Source of the DNA: Pseudovibrio sp. Alg231-02
Lineage (GTDB): Bacteria > Pseudomonadota > Alphaproteobacteria > Rhizobiales > Stappiaceae
Direction: 5' to 3'
Length of the DNA stretch: 64,000 nt
NCBI RefSeq assembly: GCF_900143565.1
Contig: NZ_FREX01000001.1
Location: forward strand, 883,068 to 947,067
Shown: positions 25,313 to 28,981 of the stretch, piece by piece
Position numbering within the stretch: position 1 is the stretch's first letter
Layout of the letters: each line of letters opens with the position of its first letter
Program-made: the position numbers and the translations under genes
The notes under the pieces: model-generated
What the model was told of the DNA's origin: nothing
The model's input: only the letters and a program-made list of their open reading frames with translations
Databases searched by the model: none

Positions 25313-25939
25313 TCACACCGAAGGATCTGGGTGGTTCAAAACCATATGTCGAACCATAAAAACGCGAGAAATGGCCGAAAGTGTGCAGATCGCAGCAAAA
25401 GTCCACGCAACCCATGAGAAGTAAGTGGGGAACAAGCAAAATGCGACGAAGACACCAATGGTTTCAAAGCCTTCAGCGAGCCCTCCCAGATAATAGAAGG
25501 ACTTTTTGCCTCGCAATGAGGTTTGCATGCCCAACTTCTGTGCCAGCGTTGCAAATGCAAGGAATGTGGAACCGTTAATGTAAAAGCTGAAAAGCAGGGC
25601 TGCCGCAGCCAAAGCGTTCTGCTCAGGCGCGACAAAGGCAAAGGCCAGTGGGATTGCACCGTAGAAGATGAAGTCGAATGTGATGTCGTAAAACCCGCCG
25701 AGATGTGTGGACCCCGCCGCTCTGGCAATGGCACCATCCAACCCGTCTGCAAAGCGATTGAGCAAGATAAACAGCAGAGCTGTATTAAATTGCCCAGCGG
25801 CCACCGCCGCCCCCGCCGCAAGGCCAAACCCAAGCCCGACCAAGGTCACTGCATTTGCAGTAATCCCCAGATCTGCCAGCGCTTTTCCCATTCTATTGAG
25901 AAGTGGGTCTATATAGCCGCGGAGTTTTGCATCAAACAT
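25313..25939 (-). CDS. CDP-alcohol phosphatidyltransferase family protein
   Basis: A 208-residue membrane enzyme with about six helices. The diagnostic motif is present: ADGLDGAIARAAGSTHLG then GFYDITFD (about residues 65-90), with every conserved Asp, Gly, Ala and Arg of the D-x2-DG-x2-AR-x8-G-x3-D-x3-D pattern. It transfers a phosphoalcohol from CDP-alcohol in phospholipid synthesis; the product is not clear from sequence. Start ATG 25939 has GGAT 9 bases upstream. A spaced inverted repeat lies about 90 bases upstream. Confidence 0.88.
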   Translation of the reverse strand: MFDAKLRGYIDPLLNRMGKALADLGITANAVTLVGLGFGLAAGAAVAAGQFNTALLFILLNRFADGLDGAIARAAGSTHLGGFYDITFDFIFYGAIPLAFAFVAPEQNALAAAALLFSFYINGSTFLAFATLAQKLGMQTSLRGKKSFYYLGGLAEGFETIGVFVAFCLFPTYFSWVAWTFAAICTLSAISRVFMVRHMVLNHPDPSV

Positions 25940-26024
25940 ATCGTATCCTATCAGATATGCTTTTCGTCTTAGGGCTTTTTTTCCAAGGTGCCTATAACAG
26001 CCCGCTCGCAATCCACACGCGCGG

Positions 26025-26055
26025 TGATCAAGATTACTTCATCAGAACTTGATCA
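26025..26055. promoter_or_regulatory. spaced inverted repeat upstream of the CDP-alcohol transferase
   Basis: TGATCAAG (26025-26032) and CTTGATCA (26048-26055) are exact inverted repeats 15 bases apart. The site lies between the sodium-channel gene's end (26093) and the phosphatidyltransferase start (25939). It could be an operator or a weak stem-loop. Confidence 0.35.
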
Positions 26056-26092
26056 TGATCTTCAGCGTAAGTAGTTCTGCCGACGGGTAATC

Positions 26093-26893
26093 TTACTCGC
26101 GGTTTTTCCGCAATTTTTCCAACTCAACCATCAGATCAAGTTTCAGGTCTTTGAGTTCACTCAAGACAACCTTTGTCTCTTCATGCACGTTGATACGATC
26201 TTGCTCAATATCCTTATCGTGCTCCTGCTGCATTGCTGCAACGATTATACCGATAAACAGGTTCAAAACGGTGAAGGCGGTGCACAATATGAAGGGAATG
26301 AAGAACAGCCATGCATTGGGAAAGACCTCCATAACTGGCCGAACGATCCCCATACTCCAGCTTTCCAGTGTCATGATCTGGAACAGCGAGTAGGCCGATG
26401 CTCCGATTGAGCCGAACCATTCGGGAAACACCAAGCCGTACAAGCGCGTGGCCATTACGGAGAAGACATAAAAGACAAGAGCCATGAGCAGGACGATTGA
26501 GCCCATGCCCGGAAGTGCTAGGATCAACCCACCAATGACACTTCGCAGAGACGGGACAACCGAAATAAGCCTCAAAATCCTCAGGATCCTGAGCGAACGC
26601 AGAATGGTCGCCGGGCCAGTTGCCGGGATGACTGCAATCGTGATGATGAAGAAATCGAAGAGGTTCCATGGCCCCTTAAAGAAACCCGGACCAAACGCGA
26701 TGATACGCAGTGTCAGTTCAACAACAAAAATTACAAGGATCAACTCATCAAGAAAGCGCAGTATGGGGCCGTACTTGGCAATAAGCATCTGGCTTGTATC
26801 CAAGCCAAGGACAACAGCGTTCAACGCGATTATACTTATGATTGTGAATTCCCATTGGCGGCTTTCAATGATGGATCGCAACTTCGCCCGCAT
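26093..26893 (-). CDS. bacterial voltage-gated sodium channel (BacNaV), filter TLESWSM
   Basis: A six-helix ion channel subunit, 266 residues from ATG 26893, matching the length of NavAb/NaChBac-type tetrameric channels. The S4 voltage sensor is RSLRILRILRLISVVPSLR, with arginines every third residue. The pore reads FPEWFGSIGASAYSLFQIM, then the selectivity filter TLESWSM followed by GIVRP, the same filter as NavAb as I recall it. S6 (FFIPFILCTAFTVLNLFIGI) leads into a charged coiled coil (about 225-266). An in-frame start at 27007 would add 38 residues absent from its paralogue. The paralogue with a different filter is encoded just upstream. Confidence 0.9.
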   Translation of the reverse strand: MRAKLRSIIESRQWEFTIISIIALNAVVLGLDTSQMLIAKYGPILRFLDELILVIFVVELTLRIIAFGPGFFKGPWNLFDFFIITIAVIPATGPATILRSLRILRILRLISVVPSLRSVIGGLILALPGMGSIVLLMALVFYVFSVMATRLYGLVFPEWFGSIGASAYSLFQIMTLESWSMGIVRPVMEVFPNAWLFFIPFILCTAFTVLNLFIGIIVAAMQQEHDKDIEQDRINVHEETKVVLSELKDLKLDLMVELEKLRKNRE

Positions 26894-27452
26894 TTCGACA
26901 CTTGACCTCACATTTCGAATTTGGGCCCACCCTAAGTAATTATCTGATGGTTTCAAGTTGAAAGGGGCCAGCAAAATATTGACTGGTATAGATGAAGAAA
27001 TCGCCAAGAACTTCAGGTAGTAAAATCAAAACAACACTACCAAAATTAACTTATAGTTTTCATGGGCTTGATCATTTCCACAAGAACTAACAAAAAATTG
27101 CATAAATTTTGTAGAAATTGCGGGTATTGCTCAACACCAGAGCCAAAACCTCCTGAATGTACGATCTGAAGAGTTAAAAGGCTGAGGTTGACACCCGTCA
27201 AATGACCCTGGCTTGACCATTGCAATTGCAGCTTCTCCCTCTCCTCATGCCGCTTTGGTACATGGATGATCTTGTTTAGAGCACTCTCTGCAACTCATAA
27301 AACTCTGTATGCCTACTGGCAGATACAACCTAGGCTATTTTGAGAAGCGGCAGAGACGCCTTCTGAAGGACTGCGCACCAAGTGCTGGTGTTGGTGCGCT
27401 GAGGTGCCTCCATGTTGCACAAAGACCGTCGTCTACGATCTGGGAGTCCGCA
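26894..27452. other. intergenic region between the two channel genes
   Basis: About 560 bases without a recognisable gene. It is AT-rich near 27000-27120, where the promoter of the sodium-channel gene probably lies. The length suggests the two channels are transcribed separately. A weakly open plus-strand frame (27309-27653) overlaps the end of the second channel and resembles no protein. Confidence 0.55.
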
Positions 27453-28280
27453 CTAGGTCAACTCTGCTGTTTTCTTATGAGGGGCCTTACGATTGCGTCT
27501 CAGCTTCGCAACATCTTGCCGCAAAGTCCTGAGCTCTTTCATAATCGCATTTGCTTCCATTCGCACATAATGGTGATGCTCTTCCACATCCCTCTCATGC
27601 TCTTCCTCCATTGCTGCAACAATGACGCCGATGAACAAGTTCAGGACTGTTAATGCAGTGGTCAGAATGAACGGTATGAAGAACAACCAGGCATTCGGAT
27701 AGACATCCATGACTGGGCGGACGATTGCATCACTCCACCCCTCCAGCGTCATAATCTGGAACAGAGAATAAGCGGAAGCGCCGATCGTTCCAAACCATTC
27801 CGGGAAGGTCTCGCCGTAGAGCTGCGTCGCCATGACAGAGAACACATAGTAGACCAGAGAGAGAAGCAACATGATTGAGCCCATCCCTGGCAATGCCAAG
27901 ACCAGCCCTCCGATCACGCGCCTCAGCGATGGGACGACCGAGATGAGCCGCAGAACACGAAGGATTCTCAGTGACCGCAGTATCGCTGCCGGACCCGTGG
28001 CCGGAATAAGCGCAATGCTTACGATAAAGAAGTCGAAGAGATTCCAGGCTCCTCGGAAAAAGCGGAAGCCATATGCAAACACGCGAAGAGAAATCTCAAT
28101 CACGTATATGCCGACTACGATATCGTCCAATGTGCGGAGTATTGGGCCGTAATGTTGTTGAACAGTCTGGCTGGTTTCAACCCCTAAAGTTATCGCATTC
28201 AGGGCGATGATAGATATGATCGTGTATTCCCAAGCCTTACTTTCAATGATCGCACGAAGTTTTTTTCGCATCGTCCACAT
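27453..28280 (-). CDS. voltage-gated cation channel paralogue, filter TLEGWSD (predicted calcium-permeable)
   Basis: A 275-residue six-helix channel subunit closely related to the one encoded at 26093: RSLRILRVLRLISVVPSLRR (S4), FPEWFGTIGASAYSLFQIM (pore helix), S6 FFIPFILTTALTVLNLFIGV, and a C-terminal coiled coil with several His (EEHERDVEEHHHY). The selectivity filter (residues 178-184) is TLEGWSD rather than TLESWSM. Glycine at position 4 and Asp at position 7 are the features I recall from CavMr, a native prokaryotic calcium channel (TLEGWVD). Calcium permeability is therefore predicted, not shown. It starts at MWTMRKK; ATG codons at 28280 or 28271 both fit. Confidence 0.88.
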   Translation of the reverse strand: MWTMRKKLRAIIESKAWEYTIISIIALNAITLGVETSQTVQQHYGPILRTLDDIVVGIYVIEISLRVFAYGFRFFRGAWNLFDFFIVSIALIPATGPAAILRSLRILRVLRLISVVPSLRRVIGGLVLALPGMGSIMLLLSLVYYVFSVMATQLYGETFPEWFGTIGASAYSLFQIMTLEGWSDAIVRPVMDVYPNAWLFFIPFILTTALTVLNLFIGVIVAAMEEEHERDVEEHHHYVRMEANAIMKELRTLRQDVAKLRRNRKAPHKKTAELT

Positions 28281-28537
28281 GTCCAGACATTACGTTAGGG
28301 AATGACGATTTAAACTCTGAAACCAGTTGTTTTTATGTTTCTTCAATAACGAACTCAGAAAAACATCAGGAAAGAGAACAGTTCATTATGCTTGGGTCTA
28401 AAAATATACTTCACTCTTAGACAACTCTGAAGTTCGAGTAAGCATTTTTGTTTCTGTCGTACTACTTGGAGAACCAATATGAAAGGCTGATTGGCGGAAG
28501 ATAACTGCAATGATGGTGACCTGAGAGCGAGTATCAA

Positions 28538-28981
28538 ATGATAAAAACGACCAAGGATGACATAACCCGGTTTGTAATTGCGCAGGACCCGGTTTTCTCA
28601 GAAGTGGTGCAGGAGCTCTCACAAGGCCGGAAGACCTCACATTGGATCTGGTTTATCTTTCCTCAATTACGTGAACTGGGCAGTTCTTCAACCGCACACT
28701 TCTTTGGCATTACCGATCTTGAAGAAGCTCAGCGATATCTTGCTTATCCTCTGCTGGCCGCACGATTACGTGGCTGCTGCGGGTTGCTTCTCAAGCATAC
28801 CGATCTCACTTCCAAGCAAATCCTTGGCGAAATAGACCGCTTGAAGGTGCGCAGCTGTGCAACCCTTTTTGCATATGTTGCTGATGATCCAACAGTGTTT
28901 CATCAATTACTCGATCAGTTCTATAACGGGCAGCCGTGCAACCTCACGATGGACGCTCTCGGGTTGCCTTGGAACGCTTAG
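28538..28981 (+). CDS. DUF1810 family protein
   Basis: A 147-residue protein with the DUF1810 hallmarks: RFVIAQDPVFSEVVQELSQG, the strongly conserved KTSHWIWFIFPQL, TAHFFGITDLEEAQRYLAYP and LKVRSCATLF. The function is unknown. It is divergent from the channel gene and convergent with the glycosyltransferase gene, ending 20 bases from it. Confidence 0.9.
   Translation: MIKTTKDDITRFVIAQDPVFSEVVQELSQGRKTSHWIWFIFPQLRELGSSSTAHFFGITDLEEAQRYLAYPLLAARLRGCCGLLLKHTDLTSKQILGEIDRLKVRSCATLFAYVADDPTVFHQLLDQFYNGQPCNLTMDALGLPWNA

Follow-up and report, generated by a model that had tools for sequence, protein, structure and literature searches.

A stretch of 64,000 nucleotides from Pseudovibrio sp. Alg231-02 (hereafter the window) carries two adjacent voltage-gated channel genes, A and B, whose selectivity filters read TLESWSM and TLEGWSD. 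We favour the view that B arose as a tandem copy of A, a NavAb-type Na+ channel, and has neofunctionalised into a voltage-gated channel that is probably Ca2+-permeable and possibly even Ca2+-selective. B is a natural channel that combines glycine at filter position 4 with an acidic residue at position 7, belongs to the canonical family by descent and lies beside an unchanged sister. The available part of PMC7041947 describes this filter type, Gly-4 with a polar or acidic position 7, as not observed in the canonical family. The pair thus offers a natural before-and-after case for the evolution of ion selectivity; it is well suited as a test system but not new in kind.

Two adjacent channel genes with different filters

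The preliminary description of this DNA had reported the two filters in neighbouring genes, and both open reading frames lie where it placed them on the minus strand, each matching Pfam Ion_trans (PF00520; A 3.1e-37, B 1.5e-44). The features are:

26093..26893, minus strand: channel A, NavAb-type voltage-gated, filter TLESWSM, predicted Na+ channel (Pfam, open reading frame, tree)
26351..26371, minus strand: selectivity filter of A, TLESWSM (converted from G000:C8 positions)
26894..27452, minus strand: 559-base gap from the stop of B to the likely ATG of A (coordinates)
27453..28280, minus strand: channel B, tandem paralogue of 275 residues, filter TLEGWSD, predicted to be divalent-permeable (Pfam, tree, dN/dS)
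27729..27749, minus strand: selectivity filter of B, TLEGWSD, residues 178-184 (sequence)
27948..27977, minus strand: core of the S4 voltage sensor of B, Arg 102, 105, 108 and 111 (invariant in an 18-channel alignment)

B lies upstream of A, and the two genes are co-directional, adjacent and single-domain. The frame of A is readable to a TTG at 27007, but its start is likely the ATG at 26893, which gives 266 residues and lines up with MRKKLR of B. A scan of 25900-28700 returned six promoter-like matches (3.5 in shuffles, sd 2.1) and five terminator-like matches (2.4, sd 1.8), with none of either kind in the gap between B and A. Among the eight neighbouring genes that were mapped (lysyl-tRNA synthetase, TerB-like, ApaG, CDP-alcohol phosphatidyltransferase, DUF1810, glycosyltransferase, solute-binding protein and fatty acid hydroxylase) none matched a Ca2+-signalling family; the NCBIfam name of the ApaG neighbour includes Co2+/Mg2+ efflux. 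The genome itself holds six Ion_trans matches, namely A, B, a further TLESWSM channel C and three proteins with TVGYG or TTGYG filters, which we take from the motif to be K+-channel-like. Channel C lies outside the window (G000:C8:191324-192103; L162, L002) and is a more distant paralogue, identical at 126/266 aligned residues to A and at 130/275 to B; it also occurs in G013, G015 and G024 and is split in G017.

A and B are identical at 182 of 262 aligned residues, much more than chance would produce, and both have orthologues in other genomes. Identity amounts to 87/125 over the initial part, which includes the voltage sensor, and 80/96 in the pore part, and the region directly after S6 is the least alike (9/31). 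The near-identity claimed earlier for S4, pore helix and S6 holds: there are 3 differences in the 23 residues of S4 with its end, 3 in the 29 of S6 and none in the 15 of the pore helix with the filter entry, IGASAYSLFQIMTLE. The filter is another matter. Gly181 of B corresponds to NavAb S178 (filter position 4) and Asp184 to NavAb M181 (position 7), and all three bases of the latter codon have changed (ATG to GAT or GAC). The residue just behind the filter has changed as well (G182A, position 8), such that A reads TLESWSMG vs TLEGWSDA in B.

The scaffold of B is that of NavMs and NavAb, with the same S4 arginines, filter Glu and filter-to-S6 length. Across the 18 aligned channels there is no variation at the S4 arginines, at Glu and Trp of the filter or at the S6 Asn (alignment A1, whose first row lacks Met1, numbers the S4 arginines of B 101-110). 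In B the overall helical layout is retained, as are the arginines of S4, the filter Glu that corresponds to NavAb E177, the P1 helix and S6, and the model shows a long C-terminal helix as well. B has no Cys, and 17 residues separate the filter Trp from S6, as in NavAb, with which it shares 115 of 267 aligned residues while differing in the filter (TLEGWSDA vs TLESWSMG). Its best sequence matches in the PDB are 6sx5, 6yz2, 5hvx and 5hvd (best 2.5e-84), all titled NavMs, followed by NavAb chains; the first PDB matches of its AlphaFold model are NavAb, NavMs and CavAb. This model is a monomer without Met1, built from 18 sequences (mean pLDDT 77, pTM 0.53), and is uninformative on filter chemistry. 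At the position of NavAb T206 both A and B carry Ala, and since exchange of T206 for Ala slows inactivation in NavAb (available part of PMC12919392), sustained currents would be expected from both.

Origin of channel B

The tree indicates that B is a tandem duplicate that arose within Pseudovibrio, and that a TLESWSM ancestor gave rise to TLEGWSD. It was computed from 65 rows with IQ-TREE and a mixture model after removal of filter positions 4, 6 and 7; a first tree had 81 hand-chosen rows, from which six long or odd rows and ten near-duplicates were dropped. NaChBac and NavAb are included, whereas the sequences of CavMr and NavPp and the broken B copies of G017, G022 and G024 are not among the rows. 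The three B rows form a clade (100/100, bootstrap/SH-aLRT) whose sister is a group of nine A orthologues (98/95); B with the A orthologues reaches 97/97, and the addition of three more Pseudovibrio channels 99/86. As all 12 of these nearest neighbours carry TLESWSM, the local direction of change is clear. B falls in a group of NavAb and 58 further rows (99/99) and is nested among Pseudovibrio A, while the rows L084 (TLEDWTD) and L090 (TMEGWID), taken as AnclNav-like on their filters alone, fall outside the NavAb branch, with NaChBac. The earlier proposal of a tandem duplication that yielded two different filters is therefore upheld and narrowed to this genus. Among 60 NavAb-like rows, at least seven changes are required for Gly-4 and at least six for an acidic position 7, with many of the deep branches weak.

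Two other groupings were tried and rejected: placing B with 15 other Gly-4 NavAb-like rows was 161 log units worse (AU p 1.9e-11), and placing it with the other TLEGWSD channel, L112, was 51 log units worse (AU p 0.0275). Horizontal gain of a CavMr-like channel is disfavoured by the position of B in the filter-free tree and by these AU tests. A swap of the filter by recombination from another Gly-4 gene is not favoured either, because P1 and S6 of B are A-like.

CavMr of Meiothermus ruber is a native Ca2+ channel of the AnclNav group, a branch separate from the canonical BacNavs according to the available part of PMC7041947, and the corresponding part of PMC12919392 (2026) calls it the only identified prokaryotic Cav. 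Its filter, TLEGWVD, shares Gly-4 and Asp-7 with B, and the filter likeness pointed out in the preliminary description stands (PMC7041947, as available), but it is one of convergence rather than kinship, because the tree places B among NavAb-type channels and B does not have the disulfide-bearing extension of the L6 loop that the available text of PMC10120453 describes for CavMr, its own loop being of NavAb length. By the tree B belongs to the NavAb branch and not to AnclNav, CavMr itself being outside the tree. B is hence a member of the canonical NavAb-like BacNavs by descent, although its filter departs from their motif, TLESWxxG (PMC4225499, in part).

Rarity of the filter

Filters were surveyed in overlapping samples of order, class and phylum. 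The order sample gave 116 matches to a canonical-type pattern in 110 of 397 genomes; by eye, 110 are TLESWSM, and the others are B, TLEGWAG (G591), TLEGWAA (G629), two TLESWSE (G573 and G515) and one TFESWSM. The class sample, searched with a looser pattern, gave 100 matches in 90 of 385 genomes, of which 10 were set aside as their letters are not channel-like; the 90 retained comprise 72 with Ser-4, 16 with Gly-4 and two others, and include a TLEMWGR that may be no channel, while the pattern missed two Gly-4 channels, L106 and L109, both with Glu at 7. Asp or Glu occupies position 7 in 15 of the 16 Gly-4 channels (the other has Gln) vs none of the 72 with Ser-4, a raw count that ignores relatedness; the tree offers only three independent pairs, of which typically two link Gly-4 with an acidic position 7, none shows the opposite and one shows no difference. 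A strict rule that couples the two positions is disfavoured by the order sample, where two of three Gly-4 matches lack the acid and two Ser-4 matches carry Glu, all read by eye. At the same time, Gly-4 does not appear to be common among Na+-selective relatives, an outcome that would have spoken against the calcium prediction, since it occurs in only 16 of the 90 channels of the class sample and nearly always with the acid. The phylum sample matched in 94 of 398 genomes, with Gly-4, by eye, in B and in G495, G1099 and G1143, which share the class of Pseudovibrio; elsewhere in the phylum the prevalent filters are TLESWSM and T(L/F)EDWTD. Judged from these sequences, the filter of B is rare, and Gly-4 with an acidic position 7 recurs in Alphaproteobacteria.

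What sets B apart is its company. The Gly-4 pattern alone matched in 18 of the 385 class-sample genomes, and of the loci concerned, each some 1.6-3 kb long, only that of B also contains a TLESWSM channel. Within the samples surveyed, a Gly-4/acid-7 channel paired with an unchanged sister is thus found in Pseudovibrio only. The literature consulted yielded no selectivity measurements of natural Alphaproteobacterial Gly-4 channels, and a search by title and abstract start, with most subscription journals outside it, found no paper on Pseudovibrio channels. A natural NavAb-like channel of Thioalkalivibrio sp. HK1 (L056 4001-4792) carries TLEGWSM, the filter of the engineered Li+-preferring channel LivAb, and a locus in another genome (L098, G331:C198) holds two adjacent channels with TLEGWAE and TFDDWIE.

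What channel B may conduct

By analogy with characterised channels we consider it likely that B is Ca2+-permeable, whereas strong Ca2+ selectivity, with PCa/PNa above 10, is a possibility that we hold with some doubt; the calcium reading as a whole is plausible, with permeability alone and selectivity about equally likely. Upon depolarisation, the B homotetramer would open as NavAb does. Gly-4 would widen the filter entrance and expose the Glu ring, and with Met-7, which contributes to the exclusion of divalents in NavAb, replaced by Asp, a mouth lined by four Asp would admit hydrated Ca2+. The published values that follow are those in the available parts of the sources. In NavAb, S178G leaves PCa/PNa below 0.05 with a PLi/PNa of 2.18, M181A raises PCa/PNa from below 0.05 to 0.36, and the double mutant S178G/M181A reaches 0.47 with a PLi/PNa of 0.99 (PMC12919392; the M181A effect is about 10-fold in its discussion, and PCa/PNa stays below 1 in its table). 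On the scaffold of B, Gly-4 alone would therefore confer no Ca2+ permeation, loss of Met-7 would do so partly and the Asp ring may add to it, from which Ca2+ permeability of B can be inferred. A literature search found no published value for a NavAb in which Asp-7 is the sole change (M181D), and the available part of PMC10349818 has nothing on positions 4 and 7.

The premise of the preliminary description, that Gly-4 and Asp-7 mean calcium, is not established by these data. Gly-4 is the calcium determinant in CavMr, where PCa/PNa falls from 218 to 11.9 in G4S, to 7.73 in G4D and to 144 in D7M, and NavPp, which has Asp at both positions, shows a PCa/PNa of 0.308 and Ca2+ block but reaches 41.4 upon D4G (PMC7041947). 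The calcium reading is thus weakened by analogy with NavPp, poorly permeable despite its Asp-7, with CavMr, still at 144 without it, and with G4D, in which added charge at position 4 lowers selectivity. The Ca2+ exclusion of NavAb S178G, the low value of S178G/M181A and the silence of NavAb with the CavMr filter also speak against it, as do the dispensability of B in the genus, the lack of a Ca2+-signalling family among its mapped neighbours and the two Gly-4 channels of the order sample that have no acid at 7. Two published ideas clash over B: a 'beacon' model, by which Gly at position 4 of a one-domain channel leads to Ca2+ selectivity (PMC10120453), and the NavAb S178G result, by which it does not. 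Since no current was obtained from NavAb equipped with the CavMr filter (PMC7041947), changes elsewhere in the channel that make such a filter tolerable to a Na+ pore are of particular interest, and comparison of A with B could reveal them.

It is possible, if rather unlikely, that B is instead no calcium channel but one that passes Na+ or cations in general, with a changed preference among monovalent ions or a block by Ca2+, akin to NavPp or to LivAb. LivAb is the engineered NavAb S178G (TLEGWSM), Li+-preferring and Ca2+-excluding, and shares Gly-4 and the NavAb scaffold with B, which additionally has Met-7 changed to Asp and Gly-8 to Ala. The S178G and S178G/M181A values and those of NavPp favour such a channel, as does NsvBa of an alkaliphilic Bacillus (TLDSWGS), which shows that drift to non-selectivity can occur in the filter of a natural BacNav (PMC4225499), although NsvBa is changed at positions 3 and 6. 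However, B joins Gly-4 with an acidic ring at position 7, which in the NavAb double mutant was occupied by uncharged Ala, and acidic substitutions raised Ca2+ permeation in NavAb and NaChBac, if not in CavMr G4D: TLEDWSM is about 100-fold more Ca2+-permeable than TLESWSM, TLDDWSD (CavAb) is Ca2+-selective (PMC10120453), and in NaChBac TLDDWAD has the same tendency (PMC4225499). CavAb has the NavAb scaffold and Asp-7 in common with B, but it is artificial and also has Asp at 3 and 4, whereas B is natural, keeps Glu-3, has Gly-4 and gained an acid at 7 only.

It is improbable that B serves mainly as a subunit of A-B heterotetramers in which one to three Gly-4/Asp-7 subunits tune the selectivity of A. 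The genes are adjacent, and the overall identity of the proteins, their identical P1 stretch and their near-identical S6 are compatible with co-assembly, which such proximity may favour. Yet the region after S6 is where they are least alike, the pore part being far more similar, and 559 bases lie between the genes.

Returning to a Ca2+-permeable homotetramer of B, one depolarisation could be read out both as Na+ entry via A and as a Ca2+ signal via B, and such a division of labour in a marine bacterium is speculation, to which the eight neighbouring genes do not point. More tentatively still, B could be a native Ca2+-selective channel born within the genus independently of CavMr, and the Gly-4/acid-7 channels dispersed over the NavAb-like clades of Alphaproteobacteria could together form a recurrent class of bacterial calcium channels; we would sooner bet against this combined proposal than for it. 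If it is true, a calcium channel emerged from a sodium channel within one genus via few changes in the filter.

Selection on channel B and its fate in Pseudovibrio

Where intact, B is by codon comparison under strong purifying selection. Its three pairwise dN/dS values are 0.028-0.033 (Nei-Gojobori, dS up to 1.29); those of A are 0.050-0.069 in the same three genome pairs and 0.021 and 0.030 in two others. TLEGWSD is identical in the B of G000, G013 and G015. Among 103 alignment columns invariant in nine A and 12 outgroup rows, B has eight fixed changes, three in the eight columns of NavAb 175-182 vs five in the 95 elsewhere (Fisher p 0.015, for a stretch picked in the knowledge that the filter differs). 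The fixed differences outside the filter stretch are at NavAb 141, 207, 222, 233 and 244.

The relatives of the window are Pseudovibrio genomes, and P. ascidiaceicola DSM 16392 carries a 98% identical B. B is intact in three of 16 genomes of the genus (G000, G013, G015), broken or vestigial in three (G017, G022, G024) and absent from six that keep A (G014, G018, G019, G021, G023, G027), which indicates that it is dispensable; the remaining four (G016, G020, G025, G026) gave no match or weak or partial ones. G018, G019 and G027 show a partial rearrangement of the locus, and the tree implies losses of B in G014, G021 and G023. The survey of relatives proposed in the preliminary description hence gives a divided answer: every intact B has TLEGWSD, but the intact pair is confined to three of 16 genomes.

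In G017 a one-base frameshift interrupts B, with TLEGWSD still present; it may be a draft-assembly error, since channel C of this genome is also split. In G022 B is cut after codon 65, and a search of the genome did not find the rest; both contig ends carry transposase pieces (L118 5807-5941 and L117 108-605), with Pfam HTH_Tnp_1 on one and the rve integrase core on the other. These two breaks and a remnant in G024 might suggest that B is a duplicate in decay and that its filter was altered by relaxed drift, but this is very improbable and already disfavoured, given the dN/dS of the intact copies, below that of A in the same pairs if not in the other two, the identical filter in all three and the possible assembly error in G017. 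The G024 remnant is B-like and C-terminal, has the filter TLEEWSD (L119 4225-4605) and lies on the opposite side of A from the place of B, a position that suggests more than one tandem rearrangement.

Other adjacent channel genes

Tandem pairs occur elsewhere in other forms. Three genomes of one alphaproteobacterial family hold two TLESWSM channels 911 bases apart, with the same filter in both copies (G271:C71, G443:C29, G365:C53; L167, L168, L170). A different genus of the Pseudovibrio family provides two genomes in which an Ion_trans frame lies beside a NavAb-type channel (G042:C9:103957-104607 and G056:C2:1013073-1013756; L160, L159). This frame (322 residues, Ion_trans 2.3e-8) is 25-27% identical to B; by eye, only one of the four spaced arginines of S4 remains, and LFELASWYE or LSDLAPWYE stands in place of a filter. 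The two copies have 271 of 302 residues in common, and the frame may encode a silent or regulatory subunit that has been kept.
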